Position numbers and translations under genes: made by a program
In this document: positions 1,833-30,140 of the stretch, piece by piece
Position numbering within the stretch: the first letter of the stretch is position 1
Layout: every line of letters starts with the position of its first letter
NCBI RefSeq assembly: GCF_009830285.1
Contig: NZ_WUQX01000001.1
Coordinates: 1,612,501 to 1,676,500 of the forward strand
Reading direction: 5' to 3'
Source: Sporofaciens musculi
Lineage (GTDB): Bacteria; Bacillota; Clostridia; Lachnospirales; Lachnospiraceae
Length of the DNA: 64,000 bases
The notes under the pieces: model-generated
Databases searched by the model: none
Told to the model about the DNA's origin: nothing
What the model saw: the letters and a program-made list of their open reading frames with translations, nothing else

Positions 1833-2311
1833 AGTTTTCCTCCATTTCGATTCAGGCGTGGTTGACGGGTGAATCGAATGGAGGTGGGGACCGGCAGCGG
1901 TACACATCGGGAGGTTTCCCTAAAAATCGACAATAAGAAACGCCAGCTTCTCGCAATGAGAAACTGGCGCAACAAAAAACACCATGATTATGCTGATTTA
2001 TATGGATTGATAATACTGATAGATAACTATAATATCCCGGAGGAGGGCCTATGCTTTTTTTAATTGATATATGTCATAGCTATTACAAATGAATATTGCA
2101 GACATGGCGGTATCCTCCTATACACCGCCCATGCTGATTGCTGAGGGTCATCTGGAGGTCTGCTTTTTAGCAAAAAGAAACGGCGGCCTTGATCTACTCA
2201 AAACCGCCGTATCCGTCAGTGATACAGGAAAGCGCACGAAATCCTCTGCCCGTCAGCGGTTTTTTTCTTTTCCCCGCTGTGGAGGCAGATGTTTGGATAT
2301 GTAGGCTCGTT
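1833..2311. other. Intergenic region with two hairpins
   Basis: This 479-bp stretch has no supported gene. It holds an inverted repeat at 1941-1969 (CGCCAGCTTCTC/GAGAAACTGGCG) with A/T-rich flanks on both sides, so it may act in either direction, and the terminator of the double-receiver gene at 2172-2209. It is the boundary between the recombinase module and the transporter region. Confidence 0.5.
2172..2209 (-). terminator. Terminator of the double-receiver gene
   Basis: CGGCGG (2181-2186) pairs with CCGCCG (2204-2209) and neighbouring bases extend the stem. On the minus strand the 3' arm is followed by TTTCTTTTT. It lies about 100 nt past the stop of 2312-3082. Confidence 0.7.
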
Positions 2312-3082
2312 TCATTCCACAAAGAACAGAACCCGCCGGATCAGCTCCGGGATATTGACCGGGGCGGTGATATAGTCGTTCACGCCCTCATGCCGGTATT
2401 CATATTCCGTGGCAAGGTCGTTGTTCTCGGTGAGGATAAAGAACGGCAGAAGCCGGACAGGGGGATTCTTCATTTGGAACATCCCCGCCACCCGTCGCAG
2501 CGTATGAAACAGCTCCATTGCTGTGCCGTCCGGCAGTTCCAGATCGCACAAGATCAGTTCTATTTCTTCATCCTCAAAAATCCGACACTTGGCGTCTGCT
2601 ATCGAGGAAACCAGAATCAGGTCAAGGCCCTTTTGCAGCATAGCCGCCTGCAACGCCCCGGCGCTGGTATCTTCCGCATGGACAAAGAGCAGCTTATGAA
2701 AAGTTGAATCTGGTTCGCCGGATAACTGCCGGTAAGCGTATTCCACCAGCTTATCTTGCAGCAGCAGCCCTTTCATTTTGTCCATGCACAGCGTTGCGCC
2801 CCGGCGCATAGCCTCTTGTTCGTAGTCGTCCTTGTCATGGCAGGACGCCAGAATAAAAGGCAGCTCCTTATCTGCGGCCCGCACCTCGTTCAGAAAGTCC
2901 ATGCCGGAACCATCCGGCAGATCGAGATTACAGCAGACCACCAGCGGCATTTCCTCTTGGATGGCGGCCCGCGCTTCTTTCAGTGTACAAGCCGTTTTCA
3001 CCGGGTAGCCCCGGTGCTGTAAGTATTTTTGCAGACACCATGTATAGGTGTCGCTGTCATCGATCAGCAGTATCTTTTTCAT
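2312..3082 (-). CDS. Orphan protein with two receiver (REC) domains, no output domain
   Basis: A 256-residue protein made of two response-regulator receiver domains (about 1-120 and 130-256) with no DNA-binding domain. In the first, the acidic pair D8/D9, S80 and K102 are kept, but the phospho-acceptor position is Asn52 instead of Asp. In the second, the acceptor Asp180 and T218 are kept, but the acidic pair is replaced by H135/A136 and the conserved Lys by A240. The two domains are thus damaged in complementary ways. Its promoter (3114-3142) carries the same operator as the nearby transporter genes. It may be a phosphate sink or an adaptor that binds the regulator or kinase; this is inference. 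It is transcribed alone and has its own terminator. Confidence 0.85.
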   Translation of the reverse strand: MKKILLIDDSDTYTWCLQKYLQHRGYPVKTACTLKEARAAIQEEMPLVVCCNLDLPDGSGMDFLNEVRAADKELPFILASCHDKDDYEQEAMRRGATLCMDKMKGLLLQDKLVEYAYRQLSGEPDSTFHKLLFVHAEDTSAGALQAAMLQKGLDLILVSSIADAKCRIFEDEEIELILCDLELPDGTAMELFHTLRRVAGMFQMKNPPVRLLPFFILTENNDLATEYEYRHEGVNDYITAPVNIPELIRRVLFFVE

Positions 3083-3113
3083 ATATCTTCACCCCCAATA
3101 TTGATTTACCACA

Positions 3114-3142
3114 AGCATACACTACAAATGTTACACAAATGT
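3114..3142 (-). promoter_or_regulatory. Regulated promoter of the double-receiver gene
   Basis: On the minus strand ACATTT (3137-3142) and ACATTT (3126-3131) form a direct repeat with 11-bp period, followed after 6 bp by TATGCT (3114-3119) as -10. Four other promoters in the window share this exact geometry, which is typical of OmpR-family regulator sites overlapping the -35 position. A further TGTCCG-N5-TGTAAC site lies at about 3183-3199. Confidence 0.75.
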
Positions 3143-3226
3143 CCGAGGTGCCTTTGATTTCGGCAGAAAAACAGGCTGAATTGTTACAAAGCTCGGACAT
3201 TTCAAAAAAATTTTTGAGAAATTGCG

Positions 3227-3256
3227 AAAAAAGCGGGGCAGCATACGCCGCCCCGC
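3227..3256 (-). terminator. Terminator of permease A operon
   Basis: GCGGGGC (3233-3239) pairs with GCCCCGC (3250-3256), and on the minus strand TTTTTT follows directly. It lies 14 nt past the permease stop, so the double-receiver gene is a separate unit. Confidence 0.85.
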
Positions 3257-3269
3257 CGATCTCATATGG

Positions 3270-5654
3270 TTATTCCATCGTCCTGATTTGCTCAACAAGA
3301 GATTGCTTTTTCAGATTTCCAGTTGTGTAAGAAATCAAGGTGAATTGCACAATCAGCAGGATTGCTAAATATATCAATACGATCAGCCACGGAAATGAAT
3401 AGTAAAAGTATGGATTCATCGTTTTCACAACTACCTGTACGGATAGGAAGCCCAGTCCAGTCCCCAAAACCAATGTTACCAGCGTAGCAAAAACTGAATA
3501 CATTAGCCCCTCATAGCACAGCATTTTGATAAGCTGCTTTTTACTCAAACCAATCGCCTGTAACATTCCAATTTCCTGCCTACGGGATAAGAAGTTGGTG
3601 ATTGTCGTATTGACAAGGTTGATTAAAGAAAAGCACACAACAATAACAGCCACGATCAACAATACCCCGAAAGAAAGTTGTTGAAGCCCGCTATAATAAG
3701 TGATACTTTCTTTTATGGTTTCCATAACCAAATCGCTATTTCCGTCTATCCGTTGATTTAATGCGGCTTCAACCGTATCAAATTTTTCCATATCGGTAAT
3801 TACGGAAATCGTACCTGTGCAATCTATCCCGGTCGCTTCATTCATAAGCTGCTCTGGAAGCGTAAAGCACTTTGAGAAGCCGGAGTAAGAATATTCGTTT
3901 ACAATGCCCATGACTGTATAGGTCTTTGTGCGAATTTGCCCGGATTCGGTTTTATAGTCCACTTCGACGGTATCACCCAACGAAGCCTCAATATCATAGA
4001 GATCGGCACGCTCTTGAAGCAAGACAATTCCATTGCCTGCCACCAGTTCATCATAATCAATCGTTCCCGCAATTCGCTCTTTCTCCAAATTCTGCTGCTC
4101 ATCCCGGCAAAAGCCCTGAATCCATTTTCCAGAATTGCCATTTACAAGATATTCTGCGTCTGTGTAATACCAGCGCTTGATTCCTGTAACGCCATCAATA
4201 GATTCTACTGCATTTACAAAATCGGCATTTAGAAAATTCTTTTGCTGCAATCCAGACAAAGAAATACCGGCAGTGTCCCACGATTGATTTGCGTTGAGCT
4301 GGATGTTAAATTCACCGACAGGGAACACCCTGCCTCTTGCCTCTGCAACGCCATCATAGGAAACTAACATTGTCGAAATCAATACAACCAATACTCCGCC
4401 GAGTGAAAGAGAAAGTATTGTTAAAGTGGACTTTGCCTTTTGTCTGGACAGATTCATTTTAGCAAGTGAAGCAGGCGTTATTTTACGGTGCAACACGGAA
4501 CTTTCTTTCATTTTCCCCTGATAATCGGAATATCGCAATGCTTCCAGCGGAGATACTGCCGCAGCTCTTTTTACAGGAGTATGAATAGCAATCATCACAA
4601 TAATAAATGCAAAAAGGCCAACCCCGACCGTCACACATAAAGCAGTCAGCCAGTACCAACCGGCAGGAACCAGAAAATACCCAATCACATTTCCAATAAC
4701 CAGACCAATCGGGATAGCAATGGCAGCAAGTAATTTTCCCTCGCGGTAAACCATCTTTTTGATCTGTCGTTTTGTTGTTCCGATTGTGCGAAGCTGTCCA
4801 TAGTTACGGATACTGCTTGCTACTGAAATATAAAAAATCGAATAGATCACAATGCCGGAACCAATGAAAGTTATAAAACCGACCAAGAAGTAGAACAGCA
4901 TATCACTTCCACGATTTTCGTCCTTTAAGTTGAAATAAGTGGAACGGACAATCACATTATCATCGGAAATTTCTAATTGCTGTGCCAAAGTATTTGCATA
5001 GTTGGCGGCTTCTTCCTCGCTCATATTTTGAGCGTCTTTCAGCCCAATGTAAAAATCAATCATGCCCTCGTCGCCATACTGCTGTCTTACTAATTCTTTC
5101 GATATAATAGCTGTATAGCGTCCAATATCGCCGGTTTTCACATTTAAGATTCCCGTCAATTTGAAATCATGGGTAGTGCCGTCAGAAAAGGGGATTTGAA
5201 TTGTCTGTCCCAATTCATTTGAATAGCCCAAACTATCCAAAAAGGATTCCTGTACTACAATTTCATCCTCCGAAGCTGGTAAATCTCCCGAATAGGGCAT
5301 ACTTTGGGATATTAGCATATCTGCATTTGCATAAGTAAAATTCACGGTTGAATGGTTTACCTGTTCAGAAAATGCGTTAAAAAATTCCCCAACCCACGCA
5401 ATTTCTTCTTGCTTGTATAGTTCCTGTCCCTGTTGTTCAGAAATCGCATGATACATAATCTGCGCTGTTTTTTGGTTGCGGTTCTGCGTTTCCTGCATAA
5501 CCCCAAAGCCATAGAGGACAATAGCAGACAGCAATGCGCTGGCAAGTGCAATCGTCAAAACAATAAAGATATTTCTTTTTCGATTCGCCGATATACTGCG
5601 ATTTGATATGCGCTTTACTATGCCACTGGTATCATTTTCAAAAGGCCAAGTCAT
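3270..5654 (-). CDS. ABC transporter permease A (FtsX/MacB type)
   Basis: A 794-residue integral membrane protein of the antimicrobial-peptide-type ABC permease family. There is one N-terminal membrane helix (about 28-50), a large extracytoplasmic part, a three-helix FtsX block near 255-370, a second extracytoplasmic part, and a C-terminal FtsX block (about 670-780). The family works with a small ATPase to export or detach peptides or lipoproteins at the membrane; the substrate here is unknown. It starts MTWPFENDTSG with GGAGG just upstream and follows ATPase A by 14 nt, so the pair is one operon. Its last 290 bp are copied at 6583-6874, and its first 12 codons reappear after ATPase B, which shows repeated rearrangement. 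Confidence 0.92.
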   Translation of the reverse strand: MTWPFENDTSGIVKRISNRSISANRKRNIFIVLTIALASALLSAIVLYGFGVMQETQNRNQKTAQIMYHAISEQQGQELYKQEEIAWVGEFFNAFSEQVNHSTVNFTYANADMLISQSMPYSGDLPASEDEIVVQESFLDSLGYSNELGQTIQIPFSDGTTHDFKLTGILNVKTGDIGRYTAIISKELVRQQYGDEGMIDFYIGLKDAQNMSEEEAANYANTLAQQLEISDDNVIVRSTYFNLKDENRGSDMLFYFLVGFITFIGSGIVIYSIFYISVASSIRNYGQLRTIGTTKRQIKKMVYREGKLLAAIAIPIGLVIGNVIGYFLVPAGWYWLTALCVTVGVGLFAFIIVMIAIHTPVKRAAAVSPLEALRYSDYQGKMKESSVLHRKITPASLAKMNLSRQKAKSTLTILSLSLGGVLVVLISTMLVSYDGVAEARGRVFPVGEFNIQLNANQSWDTAGISLSGLQQKNFLNADFVNAVESIDGVTGIKRWYYTDAEYLVNGNSGKWIQGFCRDEQQNLEKERIAGTIDYDELVAGNGIVLLQERADLYDIEASLGDTVEVDYKTESGQIRTKTYTVMGIVNEYSYSGFSKCFTLPEQLMNEATGIDCTGTISVITDMEKFDTVEAALNQRIDGNSDLVMETIKESITYYSGLQQLSFGVLLIVAVIVVCFSLINLVNTTITNFLSRRQEIGMLQAIGLSKKQLIKMLCYEGLMYSVFATLVTLVLGTGLGFLSVQVVVKTMNPYFYYSFPWLIVLIYLAILLIVQFTLISYTTGNLKKQSLVEQIRTME

Positions 5655-5668
5655 AGCCTGCCACCTCC

Positions 5669-6334
5669 TTATTCCACAATCTTGCCATCCTCAATGCGGA
5701 CAATCCGATCTGCAAGGCGGGCAATGTCATTGTTGTGGGTAATCATCACGACAGTTTGCCGGAACTCCGCGCTGGTGCGTTTGATAAGCCCCAGCACTTC
5801 GGCGCTGGTCTTGCTGTCAAGGTTGCCGGTCGGCTCGTCGGCCAGCACGATAGCCGGTTTGGTAATCAGGGCGCGGGCAATCGCCACACGTTGCTGCTGG
5901 CCGCCTGAGAGATTGTTCGGCATATTTTTCAGTTTATCTTCCAGCCCCAGCAGGTGAACAATCTCGTCCAAAAACTTCTGATCCACCGTGTCCCCGTCCA
6001 GCTCCACCGGCAGGACGATGTTTTCATACACATTCAGGATGGGAACAAGGTTATAGTTCTGGAAGATAAAACCGATGTTGCGGCGGCGGAAGATGGTGAG
6101 CTGTTCGTCGTTCTTCTTTGCCAGTTCTTCGCCTCGGACAATCACGGTTCCGCTGGTGGGAGTGTCCAGTCCGCCCATCATGTGAAGCAGGGTAGACTTT
6201 CCGCTGCCGGAGGTTCCCACAACGGTCACAAATTCGCCCTCGTCTACGGAGAAGTTCACGCCGTCAAGGGCGCGGGTAATGTTCGGCTCTGCGCCGTAAT
6301 GCTTTTTCAGGTCAATCGTCTGTAAAACGCTCAT
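5669..6334 (-). CDS. ABC transporter ATPase A
   Basis: A 221-residue ATPase of the MacB/LolD type, partner of permease A. The Walker A motif is GTSGSGKST (40-48), the signature LSGGQQQR lies at 142-149, Walker B is LADEPTG (164-170) and the switch histidine is His200. The start ATG at 6334 has AAGGAG 7 nt upstream; the longer frame through the operator region is rejected. It is nearly identical to ATPase B (10566-11231), with differences mainly in the first 40 residues. The promoter at 6377-6405 carries the shared operator, so the operon is probably controlled by the two-component system at 14177-15897. Confidence 0.93.
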   Translation of the reverse strand: MSVLQTIDLKKHYGAEPNITRALDGVNFSVDEGEFVTVVGTSGSGKSTLLHMMGGLDTPTSGTVIVRGEELAKKNDEQLTIFRRRNIGFIFQNYNLVPILNVYENIVLPVELDGDTVDQKFLDEIVHLLGLEDKLKNMPNNLSGGQQQRVAIARALITKPAIVLADEPTGNLDSKTSAEVLGLIKRTSAEFRQTVVMITHNNDIARLADRIVRIEDGKIVE

Positions 6335-6376
6335 ATTCAAAGCTCCTTTCAACGCTTTCTGCCTGTTGATAAGGCT

Positions 6377-6405
6377 ATTGTAAAACCCAAATGTCCGCGA
6401 AATGT
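6377..6405 (-). promoter_or_regulatory. Regulated promoter of ATPase A/permease A
   Basis: On the minus strand the repeat ACATTT (6400-6405), ACATTT (6389-6394) has 11-bp spacing, with TACAAT (6377-6382) 6 bp downstream as -10. There is no good -35 box, which fits activation by a bound regulator. A second box (AAATGT-N12-ACATTT type) lies about 30 bp upstream, at about 6442-6466. Confidence 0.8.
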
Positions 6406-6470
6406 TACAGCGGCCCAAAAAATTCATTGAAAATCGGGGTGAAATGTTACAATGCTCGGACATTTCAAAA

Positions 6471-6874
6471 TCAGTCTGCCATTTTGATCCGTTCCACCAA
6501 TGAATTTCTGCATTGAATTTTTAGACAGATAGCAGAAATTATAATAGGTGTTATTATTAAGCAGACACCGTAAATCAGTAATATCGTTTTCACAACTACC
6601 TGTACGGATAGGAAGCCCAGTCCAGTCCCCAAAACCAATGTTACCAGCGTAGCAAAAACTGAATACATTAGCCCCTCATAGCACAGCATTTTGATAAGCT
6701 GCTTTTTACTCAAACCAATCGCCTGTAACATTCCAATTTCCTGCCTACGGGATAAGAAGTTGGTGATTGTCGTATTGACAAGGTTGATTAAAGAAAAGCA
6801 CACAACAATAACAGCCACGATCAACAATACCCCGAAAGAAAGTTGTTGAAGCCCGCTATAATAAGTGATACTTT
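6471..6874 (-). pseudogene. Chimeric permease fragment (permease A tail fused to permease B tail)
   Basis: The open frame gives about 118 residues, but it is not a normal gene. Bases 6583-6874 copy 3418-3709 of permease A (last FtsX block), while bases up to 6582 copy the 3' end of permease B and the operator region after it (11612-11735). The join is at 6582/6583 in the middle of a membrane helix. The upstream end breaks at 6874/6875 into an unrelated plus-strand gene fragment. It looks like a product of recombination between tandem transporter operons. It has no ribosome-binding site and no N-terminal domain, so it is very unlikely to be functional. Confidence 0.85.
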
Positions 6875-7085
6875 AGTAAAGACCGTTGCTGATTTACTGA
6901 ACGAGATTGAGAACGAAACCTTGTATCGGGCATTGCTTACGGTGGACAGGCGTACCCTGCAAATTATCCTGCTAAAAATGCAGGGCTATTCCACAAAGGA
7001 GATTTCCCCGCTTGTAGGATTGACAACAGGGGCTATCTATGCAAGGCTAGACCATCTGCGGAAAAAGCTACGGAAGATTTTATAA
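6875..7085 (+). pseudogene. C-terminal fragment of a sigma-70-like factor
   Basis: About 69 codons survive. They encode a region-4 helix-turn-helix: RRTLQIILLKMQGYSTKEIS, then VGLTTGAIYARLDHLRKKL. The 5' part was lost where the chimeric permease fragment joins at 6874/6875, so there is no start codon of its own. It is the first gene relic of a plus-strand remnant element (6875-9850), in the place where an element's regulatory sigma-like gene would sit. Confidence 0.75.
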
Positions 7086-7287
7086 TCATCTAATATAGAC
7101 GGTTTTTCAGCGGGCTATTGGATGGGAGATAAAATTCTCCCATCCAATTTAAAATTAAATGAATAAAAATCCTGTCCACAGGGAATACTAAAAAGTTTAC
7201 CCAAAATCTTGACACAAATATAGTCGCTATGATATTCTGAAATACTCATAGGAGAATTAGAAGTAAGTCAGAAATGGAGATGTCAGA

Positions 7288-7737
7288 ATGACACCAGATA
7301 AAATATTGAATTACTGCCTTCAAAATCTTGAGGGGACAGTCTTAGTTGAGAGTTGGGGCGAAAAAGGGATTTTCTATAACCCAGACCATGTGCTGAAACG
7401 TGGCGTTTATATATTGACGGTTAAGGAAAAGAACGGTGATAATGACAAAGGTTCTGATTTAAACAGAGAGAATGTCTACCGTGTGAATCTGGGAATACGG
7501 AAAAGCACTTTTGCGGAATTGTTTGGGGCAGTCCCAAAACGTCCGCCGGCGGGCGGTGTTGTAGATATGGATTATGACTTTACCGTATTGAATGAGATAC
7601 TCCCCCATCCTGTTTACGCATGGATGGCGTGGATATGTGCATTGAACCCCTCTGAACAGACATTCGAGGAATTGAAACCATATATCCAAGAAGCCTACGA
7701 GTATGCAAGGGAGAAATTTAAGAAACGAAAGAAGTAA
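7288..7737 (+). CDS. DUF6194 family protein
   Basis: A 149-residue soluble protein resembling the DUF6194 family (function unknown): an N-terminal MTPDKILNYC helix, then LVESWGEKGIFYNPD, then RENVYRVNLGIRKSTF, then LNEILPHPVYAWMAWICALN and a Lys-rich tail. The start has GGAG 9 nt upstream. It is a lone gene with about 200 bp of AT-rich DNA in front, where TTGACA at 7209-7214 could be a -35. It is probably cargo of the remnant element. It is followed by the oriT candidate and mobC. Confidence 0.75.
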   Translation: MTPDKILNYCLQNLEGTVLVESWGEKGIFYNPDHVLKRGVYILTVKEKNGDNDKGSDLNRENVYRVNLGIRKSTFAELFGAVPKRPPAGGVVDMDYDFTVLNEILPHPVYAWMAWICALNPSEQTFEELKPYIQEAYEYAREKFKKRKK

Positions 7738-8201
7738 TCTTGAAGATTGAAAATTAAATAGCACATAGATGGAAGAATGGAATGTCAGCCAATGGATAAA
7801 GCTGACTGTCGCCGAACGTAAGCCGTCCTTTTCGGCTGGCGTATGGCAGCAAGGTTTTGAATCCCAAAGCCGTTACATAGCATTGCGAATCCGAGCAGGA
7901 GAAAATACTCCTGTCATTCGTGATGCGGTGTAGCGGCTTTTTCATTTATCCAAAAGTCAAGAGAAATCAAATCCAGAACGGAGGTGCAGGGACATAGGAT
8001 TTTCTTATCGGAGGGTAAGACAGGTATGGAAGAATGCCGCTGCACAGGAAAAATGCTCTGCAGCGTTGTCCACAGAGATAGCGAGCATCGGATTGTGTCA
8101 GCCACAATCCAAATCCACGCCGCTTGTGGGCGTGGACTAACTCAGGGAACATCCCTGAATACCCTGTTAAAAATGAAATTCAAGACTGGAGGATAAGAAA
8201 A
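7738..8201 (+). other. Non-coding leader and oriT region of remnant element
   Basis: No gene is supported in this 464-bp stretch. It contains short inverted repeats around 7800-7930 and, at 8090-8157, three successive perfect inverted repeats directly in front of mobC, which is where an origin of transfer is expected. Confidence 0.5.
8090..8157 (+). other. Candidate origin of transfer (three tandem inverted repeats)
   Basis: GGATTGTG/CACAATCC (8090-8110, 5-nt loop), CCACGCC/GGCGTGG (8115-8135, 7-nt loop) and CAGGGA/TCCCTG (8143-8157, 3-nt loop) follow each other 45 nt before mobC and just upstream of a relaxase stub. Hairpins of this kind mark relaxase nick regions. The nick site itself cannot be told from sequence. 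Confidence 0.55.
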
Positions 8202-8558
8202 ATGAGCAGAGAAAAACCAGAAAAGGACGTGCGGAATGTCCCGATTACCGTCCGATTGAACGAAGAAGAACATGAAAAATTAAAGCAGTGCGCCGCCGCT
8301 TGCGGTCTGTCCGCAGCAGAATTTATGCGCCAGTTATGCAAAGAAAACGCCCCGCAGCCACAGCCTAAAACCGAGTTTTGGGAGCTGTTAAACAAGCTCT
8401 ATGAAGTGCATGACGCTTTCAAAAAGTGTGTTCCCTACTATCCGACCGCCGCCGAAATCTGTAAGGAGATTGAAGATTTTATCTTAGAACTGCAACAGAA
8501 ATCAACTCTCCCACAACGGTTTAGCGTAGAAGAATTGACAGAACAGGAGGCGGTTTGA
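8202..8558 (+). CDS. MobC-type relaxosome accessory protein
   Basis: A 118-residue protein with an N-terminal ribbon-helix-helix (VPITVRLNEEEHEKLKQCAA, then CGLSAAEFMRQL) and a helical C-terminal part, as in MobC/plasmid mobilization proteins that bind oriT and help the relaxase. The ATG at 8202 has GGAGG 8 nt upstream; the longer upstream frame is not supported. A relaxase start codon follows after 1 nt, but that gene is deleted after about 13 codons, so mobC is now without its own relaxase. It could still act with another relaxase in trans; this is inference. Confidence 0.8.
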   Translation: MSREKPEKDVRNVPITVRLNEEEHEKLKQCAAACGLSAAEFMRQLCKENAPQPQPKTEFWELLNKLYEVHDAFKKCVPYYPTAAEICKEIEDFILELQQKSTLPQRFSVEELTEQEAV

Positions 8559-8559
8559 T

Positions 8560-8599
8560 ATGGCGGTAACGAGCCTATGGCATGTCAAGGGGAGCATAA
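8560..8599 (+). pseudogene. 5' stub of a relaxase gene
   Basis: Right after mobC, and with AGGAGG upstream, an ATG begins MAVTSLWHVKGS, the usual start of MobA/VirD2-type relaxases. After about 13 codons the sequence switches to the middle of a recombinase gene in another frame. The rest of the relaxase, with its catalytic residues, is missing. Confidence 0.75.
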
Positions 8600-9799
8600 T
8601 CACGCTTCGGCAGGAACTATATTGAGGTCGGCTCTTACTCCGAAATCATCTACCCAGAAGCAGGTGTGAGGTTTATTGCCATCATGGACAACGTGGACAC
8701 GGGCAGCCTTGAAAGCAACGAATTTGCCGCCTTTACCAACCTTTTCAACGAATGGTATCCCAAAAGCACGAGCAAAAAGGTAAAGGAAGTCAAGAAAGCG
8801 AAAGGGCTTGCAGGAGAACATCTGGGACCGCCGCCATACGGATATTTACGGAATCCAGACGACAAAACCCGTTGGCTTGTGGACGAGGAAGCGGCGGCAG
8901 TCGTCCGCAGGATATATTCACTCTGTATGCAGGGAAAGGGAATATCTGCTATTGCTGATATACTTTGGGAAGATGAAGTATTAACCCCATCCGCATATAA
9001 GGCTTCAAAAGGATTAGAAGCGGCAATCGTGTCAGGAAACCCATATAATTGGGAATCCACCACGGTGGCGTTAATTCTTGAAAATGTGGCGTATATCGGC
9101 GTTACGGAGAACTTTAAGTCCACCCGTTTAGGTTTTAAAAGCAAAAAGCGCATTCCCACTGTAAAAGAAATGCGGACGTATATTGAAAATGCCCATCCCC
9201 CTCTTGTTGACAGGGAACTATGGGAGAAAGTGCAGATGATACGGGCAAATAAACGCAGACCGACAAAAAATGGTGCAACAAGCATTTTTACAGGATTATT
9301 GGAATGTGCTGACTGCGGTACAAAACTAAGTCTGCGCTCATCAAAGAGCTATCTGTATTTCCGTTGTTCCAAATATAAAGGAAACAGCAGGAGCGGCGTA
9401 TGCACACAGCATTATATCAGGGAAGATGCCCTATACCAGTTGGTATTAAAACAGCTTCAGCATTTCCTGTCCTATTTACAGCAGTTTGAAAGGGTATTTA
9501 TCCGACAGCAGATTGACGCCACCCTTGCGGAACGCCGATACGAGTTATACGCAAAGCAGAAACAGATTGAAAAAGACGAAAAGCGCATGGAAGAACTTGA
9601 CCGCCTATTCCGTAAAATCTATGAAGAGAGCTTTTGTCAAGGGAGCGTTTCATATAAGGCAAAATCTTTTGCAATCGGCATAACAGAGCAGCTGCTGAGA
9701 TACAGTTTGGTGAACCCTCGCCTCGTAATAACGAACCCTGTATCACAAAGGCGCAAGGCTGTCAAGGCATTGGCTACGCCTCGCCTACGGCGGCCTTGA
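8600..9799 (+). pseudogene. Serine recombinase, 5' deleted
   Basis: The frame starts inside the conserved SRFGRNYIEVGSYSE block, so the catalytic serine and the first 80 or so residues are gone. What remains is the end of the catalytic domain, the recombinase domain (PPPYGYLRNPDD to NVAYIGVT), the zinc ribbon (CADCG...FRCSKY...GVC) and part of the coiled coil. The last 45 or so codons before 9799 do not look like recombinase and include an inverted repeat, so the 3' end is also damaged. An internal Met at 8666 opens a 377-codon frame, but such a product could not catalyse strand exchange. The deletion that fused it to the relaxase stub removed several kilobases of a mobilizable element. Confidence 0.85.
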
Positions 9800-9806
9800 C
9801 AGCCTT
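9755..9806. repeat. 14-bp perfect inverted repeat
   Basis: AAGGCTGTCAAGGC (9755-9768) and GCCTTGACAGCCTT (9793-9806) are separated by 24 bp. It lies at the decayed 3' end of the recombinase remnant and may be a terminator or an element end. A second hairpin (AAGAGGGG/CCCCTCTT) follows at about 9831-9854. Confidence 0.6.
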
Positions 9807-9866
9807 ACAGCTTTGACCCTCTGGTAGTCAAGAGGGGGCTAAAGCCCCTCTTAATATAGCACGAAA

Positions 9867-9933
9867 CACCTGGGCAACGGACTGCCATAAGTACCGGGCA
9901 GATCCGGTCCCTTAGCATCCCGTCGCCCAGGTG
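9867..9933. other. Structured 67-nt element (outer stem plus inner hairpin)
   Basis: CACCTGGGC (9867-9875) pairs perfectly with GCCCAGGTG (9925-9933). Inside, CTGCC pairs with GGCAG, and on the minus strand GGACCGG/CCGGT segments could give a branched fold. It lies 20 nt past the stop of the DUF6440 gene on the same strand and has no T-run, so it is not a standard terminator. Confidence 0.45.
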
Positions 9934-9953
9934 CTACCAAGCGAAAAGGAAAG

Positions 9954-10136
9954 TTAGTTGTTTTCAATCGGAGAAATAACGGGTTTTCCCTCTTTGCCCA
10001 GTAACGGTGTCATTCCTCCCGCATACCCATCTTTACGAAACACATAATTCACGCCAGTCTCTGTATCTATCCAAATCTCCGTTACATCCAAAGTCCCCTG
10101 TGAATAAACCTTCTTAAATCGTTTTTGGTCAGCCAT
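9954..10136 (-). CDS. DUF6440 family protein
   Basis: A 60-residue protein matching the compact DUF6440 pattern: KRFKKVYSQGT, then TEIWIDTETGVNYVF, then GYAGGMTPLLGKEGKPVI. It has no known function; members are small and widespread in Clostridia. The start at 10136 has GGAGG 9 nt upstream. It stands alone, opposite in strand to the remnant element before it, with a structured element right after its stop. Confidence 0.8.
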   Translation of the reverse strand: MADQKRFKKVYSQGTLDVTEIWIDTETGVNYVFRKDGYAGGMTPLLGKEGKPVISPIENN

Positions 10137-10509
10137 TTTATTTACCTCCAATAATCGTAATTTGTCGATTTGTGACCGCCGACGAGCACAGTATACCACC
10201 GGCATACACAATAGTCAATTCTCATTTATAGGTGCAGCTAGTAGTGGCTAGCAATGTCTGGGGATATACCAGCCGTTTGTTGAGGGCTGGCCGCCCCCAA
10301 GCCCCTGTTAAATCAGGAGCATTGCTCCCGATTTTTAAGCCGCCTTCGGCGTCTGCTGTGCTGCTCTTTCCAGCAGGGAGCGGAAGCTGTTCTGCATGGT
10401 TGATCGGCGCATGGCTTGGTATAGCCACCCTCTGCCAATGGCCGTTCTGAACCCCGCATATTGCGGGATCTTCAAGCGCCTAATTGTCCACGCAACGCCA
10501 ACGGCCTTT
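10137..10509. other. Intergenic region between DUF6440 gene and transporter operon B
   Basis: No gene is supported over this 373-bp stretch. It contains an oriT-like sequence at 10277-10304 and several GC-rich short repeats. It ends where the truncated permease start of operon B begins, so it holds a deletion boundary. Confidence 0.45.
10277..10304. other. oriT-like inverted repeat (GGGCTTGGGG type)
   Basis: The minus strand reads GGGCTTGGGG, an 8-nt spacer, then CCCTCAACAA. The same core occurs beside the ICE relaxase (18337-18359) and upstream of the IME mobC (53091-53116). No relaxase gene adjoins this copy, so it may be a leftover from a deleted mobilizable element. Confidence 0.4.
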
Positions 10510-10551
10510 TTAAAATATGCCACTGGTATCATTTTCAAAAGGCCAAGTCAT
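10510..10551 (-). pseudogene. 5' stub of permease A copy behind ATPase B
   Basis: After ATPase B, with the same spacing and ribosome-binding site as in operon A, an ATG at 10551 starts the identical MTWPFENDTSGI. The sequence then leaves the permease and hits a stop after 13 codons. It is a deletion relic showing that operon B once had a full permease A partner. Confidence 0.9.
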
Positions 10552-10565
10552 AGCCTGCCACCTCC

Positions 10566-11231
10566 TTATTCCACAATCCTGCCATCCTCAATGCGGACAA
10601 TCCGATCTGCAAGGCGGGCAATGTCATTGTTGTGGGTAATCATCACGACAGTTTGCCGGAACTCCGCGCTGGTGCGTTTGATAAGCCCCAGCACCTCGGC
10701 GCTGGTCTTGCTGTCAAGGTTGCCGGTCGGCTCGTCGGCCAGCACGATAGCCGGTTTGGTAATTAAGGCGCGGGCAATCGCCACACGCTGCTGCTGGCCG
10801 CCGGAGAGATTGTTCGGCATATTCTTCAGTTTATCTTCCAGCCCCAGCAGGTGAACAATCTCGTCTAAAAACGTTTGATCCACCGTGTCCCCGTCCAGCT
10901 CCACCGGCAGGACGATATTCTCATACACATTCAGGATGGGAACAAGGTTATAGTTCTGGAAGATAAAACCGATGTTGCGGCGGCGGAAGATGGTGAGCTG
11001 TTCGTCGTTCTTCTTTGCCAGTTCTTCGCCCCGGACAATCACGGTTCCGCTGGTGGGAGTGTCCAGCCCGCCCATCATGTGAAGCAGGGTAGACTTGCCG
11101 CTGCCGGAGGTTCCCACAACGGCCACAAATTCGCCCTCGTCTACGGAGAAGTTCACGCCGTCAAGGGCGCGGGTGATGTTCGGCTCTGTGCCGTAATACT
11201 TTTTCAGGTCGATCGTCTGTAAAATGCTCAT
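10566..11231 (-). CDS. ABC transporter ATPase B
   Basis: A 221-residue ATPase nearly identical to ATPase A, with the same Walker A (GTSGSGKST), LSGGQQQR signature, LADEPTG Walker B and switch histidine. Starting from MSILQTIDLKKYYG, it differs mainly in the first 40 residues. It sits 5 nt after the small membrane protein frame, and what follows is only a 13-codon permease stub. It may therefore now serve permease B (11624-14011) or permease A in trans. The start at 11231 has a modest AAAGGA site upstream. The operon is driven by the promoter at 11530-11558. Confidence 0.92.
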   Translation of the reverse strand: MSILQTIDLKKYYGTEPNITRALDGVNFSVDEGEFVAVVGTSGSGKSTLLHMMGGLDTPTSGTVIVRGEELAKKNDEQLTIFRRRNIGFIFQNYNLVPILNVYENIVLPVELDGDTVDQTFLDEIVHLLGLEDKLKNMPNNLSGGQQQRVAIARALITKPAIVLADEPTGNLDSKTSAEVLGLIKRTSAEFRQTVVMITHNNDIARLADRIVRIEDGRIVE

Positions 11232-11236
11232 AAAAT

Positions 11237-11497
11237 TCAATCCTTTCTTTGTTTGTTGTAAATGCGGAACGCTGCTGCGCCGGTGGCTGCCAACTGTACC
11301 AGAATCAGCACAGCGAACAGGCCGAAGCTCTCATAGTAGAATAGTTCATCCCAAAACAGGAGAACATCACAGAGAGCAGTCAAGGCAACCGTCCAACGGA
11401 TATGCCGGGCCAGCCATTGACGAAACACCAGCACAAGGACAACGGGCGGGACGATCAGCAGCGCCAGATTCAAAATCTAGGTCGGGGTCAGTTCCAT
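11237..11497 (-). pseudogene. Small three-helix membrane protein with in-frame stop at codon 7
   Basis: A good start (ATG at 11495-11497, GAGGAGG upstream) begins MELTPT, then TAG at 11477-11479, then the same frame continues with ILNLALLIVPPVVLVL and about 78 more residues containing three hydrophobic segments. Translation could restart at the TTG at 11471-11473, but no ribosome-binding site is seen there. The protein resembles small membrane subunits encoded beside peptide ABC transporters. It lies directly before ATPase B. Either the nonsense codon inactivates it or it is a sequencing error; the rest of the frame is well kept, which suggests a recent change. Confidence 0.65.
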
Positions 11498-11529
11498 TGC
11501 GTCGCCTCCTCACTTTTGTTGATAAGGTC

Positions 11530-11558
11530 ATTGTAAAACCCAAATGTCCGCGAAATGT
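11530..11558 (-). promoter_or_regulatory. Regulated promoter of small membrane protein/ATPase B
   Basis: On the minus strand the repeat ACATTT (11553-11558), ACATTT (11542-11547) is followed 6 bp later by TACAAT (11530-11535). The sequence over about 100 bp is nearly identical to the promoter of ATPase A. Confidence 0.8.
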
Positions 11559-11623
11559 TACAGCGGCCAAAAAATTTCATTGAAAATCGGGGTGAAATGT
11601 TACAATGCTCGGACATTTCAAAA

Positions 11624-14011
11624 TCAGTCTGCCATTTTGATCCGTTCCACCAATGAATTTCTGCATTGAATTTTTAGACAGATAGCAGAAATTATAATAG
11701 GTGTTATTATTAAGCAGACACCGTAAATCAGTAATGGAATAAAAGGAAAAGCATATTGAAAATAAGTTAATCCATTCGCAGACAATATCCGTACTAACAA
11801 ACAACCCATCAAGGTTCCTGCCACAACCGTAATAATCAAGCATGGAATAATCAGTAAGACACTTTCATGCAGCAGCATTTTCTTTATCTGTTTTTTTGTC
11901 ATACCGATAGACTCCAATATTCCAAATTCTTTTCTCCTTGTGCTGATACGACTAATCAAGGTGTTTGTCAGATTAAAAATGCTAAACATAATGACAAAGG
12001 CAGATACCCCATAAACTTGTACGCTGGTATTATGAATCGTATTTGCCGAAGATGCTTTTACCTCTTGTAAGGTTTCCATTACCAAATCAGGGTGTCGGGA
12101 CAGTATTTTATTTAATTTGCTTTCTACTGATTTACCCACTTTTTCATATTCAGGTACGGACAAAGTTAAGGAAGCTGTTAAATCCATATCGCCCCACAAC
12201 TTTTCTATGGTTTCTTTTGGAAGATAAAAGCCCTCATTCATACTTTTTTCGGAAGTACCGGCAATTAAAACATCTATGCTGTGTTCAGTTCCATCAAACC
12301 ATCGTAATGTCACTTTTTCTCCTATTGACGGGCAAGTATGATAGACTTCTTTCTGTACGCTTGTCCCTAATATAACCATAGCGTCTTGTTCCACCAATGT
12401 TTCGTATGTCCAATCGACAGGAAGCGTTTTCAAAATTTCCTCCTGATTATCAGGTGTAATCGGAATAATGGGAATTTCTAATTGTTCATCGTGATACTCA
12501 ATAATGGCTGCGGTTCTCTCCGTAGTATAAATCTCTTTGACTTCCGGGATTTGTTGCAATTCTTCCATGAGTTCCTGTGAAAAAGGCGTATCAACTTGAT
12601 ACTCCGAAATACCATACGGTTTGGGGTTGACTAATGTATTGTGGTTAATCGCAATATAATATTCTCCATCTTCCAAATTGCCCATCCGCGCAAAGGAATC
12701 TGGATTCCATGATGATATAAATGTGGCTCCAACCATAAATAAAATCCCGCCGATTGCAAGCGAGGCAATCGTCAGATTGTGTTTTTTTCGATCCTGCTTT
12801 TCGCTCAATACGGCTAAAGAATACGGTGAGAGACGAATATGATTTTTCCTGTTGCGCACTCTACTTTCTTTTAGTTCTGGATCGTTTCCAACATATTTTG
12901 TTGCTTCAATAGGGGAAATATTTGAAGCTATTTGTGCGGGCTTGTATACGGAAATTTGTACGATGATAATACCTAATATTATTGCAAAAATACTTGTGGC
13001 TATGGCATTGATAATCGTTATCCCATTCGGCTCTAATAAATATGCAAATATGATACCTACTGTAATACCGGCAGGTATTCCGAACAGGCAGAAACGATAC
13101 CCCTCTTTACGAATCATCCGCTTAATCTGTTTTTCTGTCATGCCAATAGTTTTGAGCTGTCCAATCTGCGACACTTGATTTGATACCGAAAGGTAGAACA
13201 CACTGTATATGACAATTCCGCTTGAAAATGCAATAAAAAGAGTAGCTAAAAGAACACCTCCCATTCCTGATCCACTAATAAGTGAGGAACAGAATTTGCT
13301 ATTAAAATAAAGTTGGTTCCTGCTTATGTCTTGGGATAAAGCCAGACGATATACTGTATTCTCAAAATCAACAAGCCCCATTTCCGTGGCGCCATTTATA
13401 CGAATCAAGGCACTATATGGAATATCAGATAATAACGCTCCCTGTTCTGCATACGCTGGGGAAACATAAAAGTAAAATGTTCCTGTTTCCACATTATCAG
13501 TAAAACCAGTAATGATGAAGTCCTCTGTTTTGCTCCCAGCCGTTGGTAAAGTGATGGTATCTCCTATATTTAGCTGATACCCCAGCTCTAACTGAACATT
13601 TTTATCAATTACAATTTCATTGTACTGTTCTGGACAGGTTCCACTGACTAATTCATAGGATTTTATAATTCCAAAACCAGCCGGCATATAAACCGCTTCA
13701 AATTTGATCCCATCCATCAGAAAACTATCACTATGCTTATAGGGTACAATATCTTCAAGATCAGGTTCTTTTTTCAGAACTTCTATCTGTTCTGCTGTAA
13801 GCCCCCCGATGGTAGCTTGCTGCATTTGATTCAAAATCTTTTGTTCACTAATTTTGCTGCCTTGTTGGAATAAGGAGATTCCCACAATCAAACTAATTGC
13901 CAGTGCAATCGTCAAAACATTAAAAAGGCAAAAAATACGATTTGAAGATACATTGCGTTTTGCTAATTTCTTTACAATGGCGCTTGTATCGTTCTCAAAA
14001 GGCCATGTCAT
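11624..14011 (-). CDS. ABC transporter permease B (FtsX/MacB type)
   Basis: A 795-residue permease of the same family as permease A. Both start MTWPFENDTS(G/A)IVK, but the rest has diverged. The layout is one N-terminal membrane helix, an extracytoplasmic domain, a three-helix FtsX block near residues 270-400, a second extracytoplasmic domain, and a C-terminal FtsX block (about 670-790). The start ATG at 14011 has GGAGG 8 nt upstream; the longer frame runs through the operator. It is transcribed from its own promoter at 14041-14069, right after the histidine kinase gene. Its 3' end is duplicated in the chimeric fragment at 6471-6582. It may form a heteromeric transporter with permease A and either ATPase; this is inference. 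Confidence 0.92.
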   Translation of the reverse strand: MTWPFENDTSAIVKKLAKRNVSSNRIFCLFNVLTIALAISLIVGISLFQQGSKISEQKILNQMQQATIGGLTAEQIEVLKKEPDLEDIVPYKHSDSFLMDGIKFEAVYMPAGFGIIKSYELVSGTCPEQYNEIVIDKNVQLELGYQLNIGDTITLPTAGSKTEDFIITGFTDNVETGTFYFYVSPAYAEQGALLSDIPYSALIRINGATEMGLVDFENTVYRLALSQDISRNQLYFNSKFCSSLISGSGMGGVLLATLFIAFSSGIVIYSVFYLSVSNQVSQIGQLKTIGMTEKQIKRMIRKEGYRFCLFGIPAGITVGIIFAYLLEPNGITIINAIATSIFAIILGIIIVQISVYKPAQIASNISPIEATKYVGNDPELKESRVRNRKNHIRLSPYSLAVLSEKQDRKKHNLTIASLAIGGILFMVGATFISSWNPDSFARMGNLEDGEYYIAINHNTLVNPKPYGISEYQVDTPFSQELMEELQQIPEVKEIYTTERTAAIIEYHDEQLEIPIIPITPDNQEEILKTLPVDWTYETLVEQDAMVILGTSVQKEVYHTCPSIGEKVTLRWFDGTEHSIDVLIAGTSEKSMNEGFYLPKETIEKLWGDMDLTASLTLSVPEYEKVGKSVESKLNKILSRHPDLVMETLQEVKASSANTIHNTSVQVYGVSAFVIMFSIFNLTNTLISRISTRRKEFGILESIGMTKKQIKKMLLHESVLLIIPCLIITVVAGTLMGCLLVRILSANGLTYFQYAFPFIPLLIYGVCLIITPIIISAICLKIQCRNSLVERIKMAD

Positions 14012-14040: not shown

Positions 14041-14069
14041 TATTGTAAAACCCAAATGTCCGCGAAATG
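14041..14069 (-). promoter_or_regulatory. Regulated promoter of permease B
   Basis: On the minus strand the repeat ACATTT (14064-14069), ACATTT (14053-14058) is followed after 6 bp by TACAAT (14041-14046). An upstream AAATGT-N12-ACATTT box lies at about 14107-14130. Confidence 0.8.
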
Positions 14070-14176
14070 TTACAGCGGCCAAAAAATTTCATTGAAAATC
14101 GGGGTGAAATGTTACAAAGCTCGGACATTTCAAAAAAATTTACGGCGGGCAGCCGGAAATGGCCGTCCGCCGCGTT

Positions 14177-15208
14177 CTATTTTGTAGGCAGCATAATGGA
14201 AAATTCCGAACCCTTGCCCGGCTCCGAAACCACTTTGATATAGCCGCCCTGCCGCGTTACGATCTCGCGGGCCAGATACAGGCCAATGCCCACGCCCTGC
14301 TGTTCGTGTACTTCTTCCTCACGATAGAAGCGCCGGAAGATGGCAGCCTGATTGCTTTCGGAAATGCCCTTGCCGGTGTCGGTCACTTTGATCTCCACAT
14401 ACATTTCCCACAGCACCACCGACACAGCGATTTTCCCGCCTGCCGGAGTGTACTTCACCGCATTGTCCAGCAGGTTAAAGAGAGCTTCGGATGTCCATTT
14501 GCTGTCATGGGAAACGGCCAAATCCTCCGGGCAGTCCACAGACACGGCGATTTCTTTTTTCTCCGCTGCATATACAATCCCACTCATAGCCTGCGCTACG
14601 GTATCAAAAAGGTGGCCAGGTTTCTTATCCAACTGGATCACGCCCGTTTCCAGCCGGGAGGTTTTCACAAGGGCTTGAAAGAGAAAGTCCAGCTTATCCG
14701 TCTGGCTGCGGATTCCCCGGATAAAGTCGGTTCGCTCCGCCTCGGTCATGGGCTTTTCCAAAAGGGTGTCCGCTGCCATTTTCAGATTGCTTACTGGCGT
14801 TTTCACCTGATGGGAAATATCCGATACAAGGGCCTGTAACTCCTGCCGTTCCTCGTCCACAAGACGACGGTTCTCCTGCATGATCTGATAAAGCCTTGCC
14901 AGCCGGTGTCCGATTCTGGCAAGCTGGGTTTCGCTGTCCTCTGGTCGCTGGGGCGCTTCATTCCCGGCGATCATGTGGTCTAAAGTCTGGCACAGGTCAG
15001 CGGTAAACTGTGACAGCCGCTTTCCAAACGCTTGCGTCAGTACAAAAATCCCCACAAGGGCACACAGCAGCAGCGCCCCGCCAGTCAGCAGCACCGCTGC
15101 CTGTTTTGTCACAAAAAACAGGGCTATGGTAATCCCGGACATGGAGAGGACAAGTCCTATTGCTACCCGGCCAAACAGCCGCTTTACCGAGAGGTTTTGA
15201 AACTTCAT
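14177..15208 (-). CDS. Sensor histidine kinase (VncS-like)
   Basis: A 343-residue membrane kinase. Two N-terminal membrane helices (about 12-33 and 37-58) enclose almost no extracellular loop, so it probably senses something in or at the membrane, or through the transporter. A HAMP-like linker leads to the phospho-acceptor His133 (DISHQVKTP). The ATPase domain shows the N box (NLLDNAVKYT), G1 (DTGKGI) and G2 (GVGIGLYLA). The ATG at 15208 overlaps the regulator stop by 4 nt (ATGA), so the two are translationally coupled. It pairs with the regulator at 15205-15897 and most likely controls the five operator-bearing promoters. Confidence 0.93.
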   Translation of the reverse strand: MKFQNLSVKRLFGRVAIGLVLSMSGITIALFFVTKQAAVLLTGGALLLCALVGIFVLTQAFGKRLSQFTADLCQTLDHMIAGNEAPQRPEDSETQLARIGHRLARLYQIMQENRRLVDEERQELQALVSDISHQVKTPVSNLKMAADTLLEKPMTEAERTDFIRGIRSQTDKLDFLFQALVKTSRLETGVIQLDKKPGHLFDTVAQAMSGIVYAAEKKEIAVSVDCPEDLAVSHDSKWTSEALFNLLDNAVKYTPAGGKIAVSVVLWEMYVEIKVTDTGKGISESNQAAIFRRFYREEEVHEQQGVGIGLYLAREIVTRQGGYIKVVSEPGKGSEFSIMLPTK

Positions 15209-15897
15209 TTCGCCTCGCCTCCCGTCCACTGATAGCCCATGCCGTAAACGGTCTTGATGTAGGGCGTGCCACCGTCGGATTCAATCTTGCTGCGAATCCG
15301 GCTGATGGAGGTTGTCAGGGTGTGTTCATCCACAAATTTCTCGTCTATATCCCACAGCTTTTCCAGAAGCTGCCCACGGGTCAGCACTTGCCGGGGATTT
15401 TTACGGAACAGGTTCAGCATTTTGTATTCCATCGGGGATAAGGTCAGGGGCTTGCCGTTTAGGGAAGCCGCCTGCTCCGAGAAGTCCAGAAACAGCCGCC
15501 CGTCGTCGTAAATGTCCTTGGCCGGTTTGTGGTGTTCCAGCATGGCGAACATGGCTTTGATTTTCCGCTGCAAGGCCCCGATCACAAAGGGCTTTGTGAT
15601 GTAGTCCACCGCGCCCACCTCATAGCCCCGTATCTGGTCGCTTTCCTGATCGTTGGCGGTCAGGAAGATTACAATGGTGTCCGGGTGCTGGGGCTTTATC
15701 AGCCTGCACAGTTCAAAACCGTTCCCATCCGGCAGGTTGATGTCCAGCAGCACTAAATCAAATTCCCGCTGGCGCAGGACATCAGCTGCGGTTCTGGCAT
15801 TTAGGGCAGAAGTCAAGCCGTACCCGTCTGCGGTCAGGTTATAGGCTAACATCTTATTCAAAAAACTGTCGTCCTCGACAATTAAAATCTGCTTCAT
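15205..15897 (-). CDS. OmpR-family response regulator (VncR-like)
   Basis: A 230-residue regulator. The receiver domain has D9/D10, phospho-acceptor Asp52, Thr80 and Lys102. It is followed by a winged-helix DNA-binding domain (LTLSPMEYKMLNLF to YIKTVYGMGYQW). The start ATG at 15897 has a GGAAGTGAGG stretch just upstream. It is the first gene of the kinase operon. Its own promoter has the 11-bp direct-repeat operator, so it probably regulates itself as well as the transporter operons. Unlike the double-receiver protein at 2312-3082, all phosphorylation residues are intact. Confidence 0.93.
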   Translation of the reverse strand: MKQILIVEDDSFLNKMLAYNLTADGYGLTSALNARTAADVLRQREFDLVLLDINLPDGNGFELCRLIKPQHPDTIVIFLTANDQESDQIRGYEVGAVDYITKPFVIGALQRKIKAMFAMLEHHKPAKDIYDDGRLFLDFSEQAASLNGKPLTLSPMEYKMLNLFRKNPRQVLTRGQLLEKLWDIDEKFVDEHTLTTSISRIRSKIESDGGTPYIKTVYGMGYQWTGGEAK

Positions 15898-15925: not shown

Positions 15926-15954
15926 AGTATAACAGGCAAATGTCCGCGAAATGT
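15926..15954 (-). promoter_or_regulatory. Regulated promoter of the two-component operon
   Basis: On the minus strand the repeat ACATTT (15949-15954), ACATTT (15938-15943) is followed after 6 bp by TATACT (15926-15931). The spacing matches the other four promoters, which indicates autoregulation. Confidence 0.8.
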
Positions 15955-16577: not shown

Positions 16578-17225
16578 ATGGGACAACATTCAAAATACTC
16601 TTTTGAAATGAAATTAGATGCCGTTACAAAATATTTGGAGGGAAGCTGTTCAACAGAAAGTATCGCCCGAAGCCTGGGAACAAATGGAACACGTATCGTC
16701 GAGTGGGTGACCTTGTATCAGTCTTTAGGAATAGAGGGGTTAAAAACAACTCCAAAACTCCGTATCTATTCCGCCGAAACAAAACAAAATGCTGTTGCCG
16801 ATTACCTTTCCGGCAAAGGAACATTAAGGGAAATCCAGAAAAAGTATGGAATCCGCTCAGATAAGCAGCTTCGCAACTGGATTATGAAGTATAATGGTCA
16901 TGAGAAGTTAAAGACTTCTGGAACAGGAGGAACCAGCGTCATGACCAAAGGAAGAAAAACCTCATATGAGGAACGGGTGGAAATTGTAACATACTGCATA
17001 GAGCATGGAATGGATTATGCCCAGGCAGCAGAAAAATACCAGGTATCCTACCAACAGATTTACCAATGGACAAGGAAATACCAGTCAAACGGCGTAGAAG
17101 GGCTTATTGACAAAAGAGGGAAAAGAAAATCTGAAACAGAAATGTCGGAACTGGAGAAGCTGCGTGCGGAAAATAAGCTTCTTCAAGCGGAAAAGCGCAG
17201 AGCCCAGCTGGAGGTTGCTTTCTAA
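16578..17225 (+). CDS. IS3-family transposase OrfA
   Basis: A 215-residue DNA-binding subunit with two or three helix-turn-helix repeats (residues about 8-55, 65-105 and 120-170) and a leucine-zipper-like end (LEKLRAENKLLQAEKRRA). The start has AGGAGG 9 nt upstream. The frame stops at TAA right after EVAF. If one base is added there, the frame continues as LKKLDEIERRRF, the usual IS150-type OrfA ending, so a 1-nt deletion near 17222 is likely. That would disturb the normal frameshift into OrfB. Confidence 0.85.
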   Translation: MGQHSKYSFEMKLDAVTKYLEGSCSTESIARSLGTNGTRIVEWVTLYQSLGIEGLKTTPKLRIYSAETKQNAVADYLSGKGTLREIQKKYGIRSDKQLRNWIMKYNGHEKLKTSGTGGTSVMTKGRKTSYEERVEIVTYCIEHGMDYAQAAEKYQVSYQQIYQWTRKYQSNGVEGLIDKRGKRKSETEMSELEKLRAENKLLQAEKRRAQLEVAF

Positions 17226-30070: not shown

Positions 30071-30140
30071 TATATAAGTGTGGACAGGAAAAGTTGAACA
30101 ACCTATACTATCAAGTGAAAAAGCAAAGGAGATGTTTTAC

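Follow-up and report, generated by a model that had tools for sequence, protein, structure and literature searches.

Receivers that lack an output domain and act on the kinase of their own pathway have been described in a few systems. Osp of Rhodobacter sphaeroides is induced by the regulator of its pathway, inhibits autophosphorylation of CckA and is described as active in its D51N form (PMC9430884). FixT is upregulated by the pathway that it controls and inhibits autophosphorylation of its own kinase, and its phosphorylation is reported as undetected (PMC7078487). As presented in these two reports, both proteins inhibit the kinase, and nothing points to their own phosphorylation as the way in which they act (PMC9430884, PMC7078487). 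The present analysis concerns a protein of Sporofaciens musculi that, by analogy, appears closest to Osp and FixT. It is encoded within a 64-kb window (the whole stretch of DNA analysed) and consists of two receiver domains, Rec1 and Rec2, without an output domain; we refer to it as the double receiver. Its gene lies in a mobile cluster of this gut bacterium that also encodes a two-component sensor system and pumps. We tentatively favour the view that the double receiver is induced by the regulator and modulates its own two-component system independently of phosphorylation, most likely as a feedback brake, although we infer this direction of effect.

An earlier note on this DNA had proposed two receivers without output in an open reading frame (ORF) at 2312-3082. 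The ORF is real and lies on the minus strand, which the note had left unsaid, and every residue it cited was recovered. Pfam assigns two PF00072 stretches to the protein (85.5 bits); no other family, GGDEF included, reaches its curated cut-off. The AlphaFold2 model (33-row alignment) has two receiver folds with a mean predicted local distance difference test score (pLDDT) of 82, whereas the predicted template-modelling score (pTM) of 0.55 leaves the relative placement of the domains unsure. Among the 50 structural matches listed, nearly all of them single-domain, solved receivers matched the predicted halves with Z scores of 17.8-19.0, and both halves were covered. In the window allele, Rec1 keeps D8/D9, S80 and K102 and is aspartate-less at the acceptor site (N52), which leaves its five-residue site (DD, D, T/S, K) incomplete. 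Rec2 retains the acceptor D180 but has neither the acidic pair (H135/A136) nor the Lys (A240) and is thus a pseudo-receiver.

The pattern of Rec2 is also that of Osp, in which the acceptor Asp is retained and both acidic residues and the Lys are absent (PMC9430884). Osp differs in being a single domain, in working with a hybrid kinase and a phosphorelay and in its alphaproteobacterial origin. FixT of Caulobacter is cysteine-rich, as Rec1 is (PMC7078487), but its cysteines (53, 56, 59 and 64) lie in one stretch, whereas those of Rec1 (50, 51, 81 and 99) form no such close motif. FixT is also, like Osp, a single receiver; a relative of the double receiver, L060, likewise has only one. The succession of a receiver and a second receiver-like domain is found in PleD, the second domain of which is described as a pseudo-receiver (PMC12632262), and in the receiver pair 3luf/3mf4. 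These were the best Foldseek matches spanning both domains, with template-modelling scores by query length of about 0.4-0.5. Both are, however, described as GGDEF (diguanylate cyclase) proteins, and the first domain of PleD is phosphorylated. FrzZ of Myxococcus xanthus presumably also consists of two receivers without output. It differs in that it is the output of its pathway and acts through phosphorylation by FrzE (PMC3441718). Finally, CmrRST of Clostridioides difficile also ties a pseudo-receiver protein to a normal two-component system and is encoded in an operon that is autoactivated by its regulator, but CmrT is described as an OmpR-type transcription factor with a Glu at the acceptor site (PMC12548384, PMC12632262). 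Each of these elements has precedents: receivers in tandem, pseudo-receivers and kinase inhibitors of the receiver type. As far as the literature was searched, what is new is their combination in one mobile, operator-linked protein that shows natural Asp/Asn/Tyr/Ala variation at the phosphorylation site and has a conserved set of cysteines; no published description of this cluster was found there.

One scan of a collection of 84,980 species genomes yielded 65 loci. Full-length, open genes were present in 41, and the other 24 are not intact double receivers, being truncated, frameshifted, internally fused, at a contig end or single-receiver. In genomes sampled by taxonomic rank (the samples overlap, and the window's own genome is counted in each), a match was found in 5 of 392 at the level of the order, 7 of 397 of the family and 5 of 12 of the genus. 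Beyond these, a phylum-level search of 398 genomes gave, besides the window's own, nine matches of 31-41% identity, partial to one receiver, eight of which sit in open frames of 453-495 residues. Phages gave no match and viral contigs a single weak partial one; 116 plasmid records matched, all below 60% identity (31-37% in the 20 listed) and with less than 80% of the query covered in every case. The 50 open full-length copies, with some genomes present in two collections, represent 37 distinct DNA alleles, a set that leaves out copies L094-L103 of a later genus search.

The two domains behave differently across these alleles. Rec2 is without the acidic pair and without the Lys in all 37 (position 136 is always Ala, position 135 is His, Tyr or Cys, and position 240 is Ala or Ser), while D180 is retained in 35. 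Site 52 of Rec1 is Asp in 20 alleles (all GAT), Asn in 15 (all AAT), and Tyr and Ala in one each. Rec2 is therefore a fixed pseudo-receiver, whereas the loss of the acceptor in Rec1 is lineage-specific. The two losses are of different age, that in Rec1 being the recent one. The idea that the complementary loss of phosphorylation residues is a conserved design does not survive this comparison: variation among homologues was found at site 52 and not for the losses in Rec2, and N52 has to be rejected as a trait of the family. N52 and D52 are one base apart, and G154A is the sole fixed base difference in Rec1 between the N and D alleles of 256 residues. In a tree of the whole gene N52 falls on one branch whether codon 52 is included or left out (support 100/99, and 200 of 200 bootstrap trees), with the Y52 and A52 alleles separate from it. 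This tree supports a single origin of N52 that a tree of Rec1 only, computed without codon 52, cannot confirm; the latter is poorly resolved, with two changes on the best tree and one origin in 28% of the bootstraps. Since Asp is found in the most divergent double receiver (L051) and in the single-receiver relatives L060, L063, L072 and L077, it is the likely ancestral state, and N52 is likely derived. Natural single-domain hybrids, in which the front of Rec1 is fused in frame to the rear of Rec2, occur in L061, L062 and L065-L069. The fusion point in the first two is the common LPDG motif; the others form a second, near-identical group with Asn at site 52, and L069 carries a stop. Since these L065-L069 hybrids, which are outside the tree, use AAC and not AAT, a further gain of Asn may have occurred there.

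Both states can be found side by side. At least four genomes in the scan carry an N52 as well as a D52 copy, namely Eubacterium plexicaudatum (L009, L026), Dorea sp. 5-2 (L013, L045) and the isolates A13_5 (L012, L037) and B90_2 (L023, L052); G1107 and G1108 likewise hold both and are probably two of the four. Kinases were compared for 10 N and 16 D loci and regulators for 7 N and 12 D, each sharing at least 85% identity, close to full length and encoded inside the flank examined. No residue covaried perfectly with N52 and none exceeded the cut-off for partial covariation. One identical kinase protein and one identical regulator protein were each found with N52 as well as with D52. These findings, and the existence of N52, Y52 and A52 alleles, count in favour of a phosphorylation-independent modulator.

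The double-receiver gene shares its operator with the transporter, as the earlier note had held. The motif ACATTT-N5-ACATTT is present in five exact copies in the window, against 0.01 expected (100 shuffles): one before the regulator gene, three in the transporter region and one before the double receiver. It is the core of a 105-bp repeat that precedes the transporter genes, a 61% version of which precedes the double receiver. The spacing of 11 nucleotides (nt) is usual for regulators of the OmpR/PhoB type, and the copy before the regulator gene suggests autoregulation. A start codon and upstream DNA of at least 60 nt were available for 60 family loci (repeated genomes counted, one unrelated locus removed from 61). 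In 54 of them the exact operator precedes the gene, at 60 nt from the ATG in 51 and at 58 nt in three. Of the other six, L051 has one mismatch and L073 a single half-site; the upstream DNA of L031, L041 and L040/L083 (one genome) is different.

The strongest evidence that the receiver would belong to the regulon of this regulator comes from three single-receiver genomes. There the exact operator occurs before the regulator gene (product 75-77% identical), before the ATPase operon and before the receiver gene some 29 kb downstream, and the kinase is 69-70% identical to that of the window; the unrelated two-component genes lying between regulator and receiver have no exact copy. A greater conservation of Rec1 than of its own kinase, once considered for L060, L063 and L072, was rejected, as the kinases of 26-40% identity compared there with receivers of about 60-69% were other kinases; the related kinase 29 kb upstream is conserved to about the same degree as the receiver. 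In three genomes (L118-L123) several permease genes in tandem come after a single ATPase gene, and between these and the single receiver lie unrelated two-component and ABC (ATP-binding cassette) genes. Because of its own operator and a hairpin that follows the last permease gene (a 54-nt stretch containing it folds at -28.1 kcal/mol, z -5), the double-receiver gene is probably, though not certainly, a transcription unit of its own. No match to a sigma-70-type promoter was found within 2200-3400, which is compatible with an activated promoter.

From these observations a sequence of events can be proposed. The active regulator would bind the direct repeat before its own, the transporter and the double-receiver genes, so that the double receiver would accumulate along with the transporter. 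It would then bind the kinase or the regulator through its receiver surfaces and damp signalling, with no phosphorylation required. Rec2, with the residue pattern of Osp, would be the likelier inhibitory half, and Rec1 would have as its relative a receiver that stands alone and can apparently be phosphorylated, an ability that Rec1 would have lost in the lineage of the window. The output-less, regulator-linked layout, which resembles that of FixT and Osp, favours such feedback on the kinase or regulator, and by these precedents the phosphorylation-independent role suggested in the earlier note is plausible. The double receiver may thus tune the sensor rather than relay its signal. A 2025 review calls it a mystery how the pseudo-receivers of bacteria are turned on and off (PMC12632262). 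The same double receiver is carried on mobile clusters beside nearly identical kinases, with Asp, Asn, Tyr or Ala at its phosphorylation site. This constitutes a natural experiment, and a comparison of the natural alleles would directly show if phosphorylation matters for an output-less receiver.

Several findings weigh against a phosphorylation-independent modulator. The five-residue site of Rec1, with Asp52, is complete in 20 of the 37 alleles, so the ancestral Rec1 may work by phosphorylation, and FixT and Osp, from which the analogy is drawn, are single-domain proteins of unrelated bacteria. The gene is accessory: a full-length kinase at least 93% identical to that of the window is present in 14 of 378 family genomes (one further genome has a partial copy), and genome searches found the double receiver in six of these and not in the other eight. 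This absence, together with the 24 of 65 loci that are not intact, indicates that the double receiver is dispensable. Its leader DNA persists without the gene in L105, L107, L109, L110, L112 and L113, the modules of L106 and L111 stop at a contig end, and L114 (kinase 84% identical) keeps an internally deleted relic of 87 residues. Of the three single receivers preceded by the operator, two (L063 and L072) are frameshifted and L060 is intact. A terminator scan found two hairpins against 1.2 expected, which by itself is not above chance. Nor does selection help. Pairwise ratios of nonsynonymous to synonymous substitution rates (dN/dS) are 0.06 for Rec1 in the N clade and 0.145 in the D alleles, and 0.28 and 0.21, respectively, for Rec2. 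The value of 0.06 first seemed to favour purifying selection on Rec1 after the loss of D52. However, six of the ten variable bases in N-clade Rec1 also occur in non-N alleles and may have been imported by recombination, and with only four private bases left (two silent, two replacement) such selection is not demonstrable. The alleles are mosaic, as is suggested for L051 (An118; 10001-10771), which seems to have exchanged one receiver: compared with the window protein its Rec1 is 94% and its Rec2 55% identical (72% over the whole protein), and its kinase is 56% identical.

A rival reading, which we consider somewhat unlikely, is a phosphoryl sink that is being lost. Rec1 with D52 would drain phosphoryl groups from the kinase and thereby limit the regulator, and the N52, Y52 and A52 forms would be decaying copies on a mobile cluster. 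The complete sites of the D52 alleles and the intact D52 of the single-receiver L060 are in line with a sink. Decay is likewise suggested by N8 in the A52 allele (L047), by the share of loci that are not intact, among them broken copies with N52 (L049, L050 and L073), and by the fact that selection on Rec1 after the loss of D52 is not demonstrable. Decay agrees poorly, however, with 15 distinct open N52 alleles that are spread over several genera and families and all keep D9, S80 and K102, or with the 8 silent versus 2 replacement codons in N-clade Rec1, even though the possibly imported bases have to be kept in mind here. Deamidation might in addition convert an Asn acceptor to Asp, as has been pointed out for receivers of this kind (PMC4395418).

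Alternatively, Rec2 might pair with the receiver of the regulator through the alpha4-beta5-alpha5 face and so alter DNA binding, a heterodimer that we regard as rather improbable. Precedents have been discussed for CmrT/CmrR and reported for WhiI/BldM. Rec2 retains T218 and Y237, the positions of Y-T coupling, as well as D236, E246 and R250, which belong to the OmpR/PhoB dimer face. Across 33 proteins, each of the five is conserved to at least 90%. Moreover, among the matches listed, TorR, a receiver of the OmpR family, is the only solved structure with its best stretch in Rec2. Judged by eye, however, the corresponding positions of the regulator complement these only in part.

The cysteines of Rec1 allow a further, speculative reading to which we give little credence, namely that Rec1 is a feedback receiver gated by thiols or metal and fused to an Osp-like, kinase-inhibiting pseudo-receiver. 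C50, C51, C81 and C99 are invariant in all 33 aligned proteins, the single receiver included, as are 62 of the 116 Rec1 columns. They occupy key places in the active site, namely the positions D-2, D-1, T+1 and K-3, at which 67 other distinct receivers have a Cys in 0, 1, 0 and 0 cases, respectively; this set comes from the examined loci, is biased to OmpR-type regulators and forms 34 clusters at 70% identity. In that comparison K-3 is an alignment gap for Rec1, and the placement of C99 rests on the alignment of the 33 proteins. Receivers usually have Tyr or Phe at K-3 and Ala or Gly at T+1, according to the 2025 review (PMC12632262), so Cys at both positions probably means that Rec1 has lost the classical Y-T coupling, in the D52 alleles as well. 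Without the switch Tyr, Rec1 may report on redox or metal conditions, either in place of phosphorylation or alongside it, in which case D52 and N52 alleles would differ in phosphorylation as a second input.

A post-translational adaptor of the transporter or of another protein, outside the two-component system, is very unlikely: among the loci listed the double receiver usually comes after the last transporter gene and has the common operator, but the adjoining permeases vary from about 28% to 99% identity, as against 84-99.6% for full-length double receivers (L051, at 72%, apart), which does not fit a permease as partner; the ATPase, which by eye exceeds 90% in most loci, may still be one.

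The cluster reads, in the direction of transcription, regulator, kinase, permease, ATPase, a recombinase-like gene on the opposite strand, ATPase, permease and double receiver.

Coordinates of the double-receiver gene, its regulatory elements and the neighbouring genes in the window
Feature	Position	Strand	Remarks
Double-receiver gene, 256 residues, no output domain	2312..3082	(-)	ATG at 3082, stop 2312-2314
Rec1, residues 1-120	2723..3082	(-)	D8, D9, S80 and K102 retained; N52 at acceptor site; invariant C50, C51, C81, C99
Codon 52, AAT (Asn) in the window allele	2927..2929	(-)	
Rec2, residues 129-256, pseudo-receiver	2315..2698	(-)	H135, A136, D180, T218, Y237, A240
Operator ACATTTGTGTAACATTT	3126..3142	(-)	43 nt to the double-receiver ATG
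Terminator-like hairpin, 11 pairs, T tail	3232..3257	(-)	between last permease and double receiver
FtsX-type permease, 794 residues	3270..5654	(-)	
ABC ATPase	5669..6334	(-)	start chosen by inspection
Operator copy	6389..6405	(-)	
ABC ATPase, second copy	10566..11231	(-)	start chosen by inspection
Operator copy	11542..11558	(-)	
FtsX/MacB-type permease	11624..14011	(-)	start chosen by inspection
Operator copy	14054..14070	(-)	
Histidine kinase, HisKA and HATPase_c, 343 residues	14177..15208	(-)	
OmpR/PhoB-type response regulator	15205..15897	(-)	start chosen by inspection; type by profile score
Operator copy, 5' of regulator gene	15938..15954	(-)	

By inspection, the region around the cluster, in a host genome of 5.76 Mb, contains a relaxase and conjugation-like genes. 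In the conjugative element, a transposase-like gene (29815-31292) separates two parts of a long region that is helicase/methylase-like, a transposase-like pair (16578-18147) lies beyond the regulator, and the recombinase-like gene (8666-9799) lies between the two ATPase copies (all by inspection). Across L009-L073 the kinase, regulator, ATPase and operator are, by eye, mostly at least 90% identical, whereas the identity of permeases in equivalent places varies from about 28% to 99%; the transporter cassettes (3270-14011 in the window) appear to have been exchanged while the regulatory frame stayed constant. An ORF of 118 codons (6471-6827, with 3418-3709) fuses C-terminal portions of both permeases, and 292 nt of this region are 100% identical to the last permease gene; the ORF is likely a relic of recombination between cassettes.
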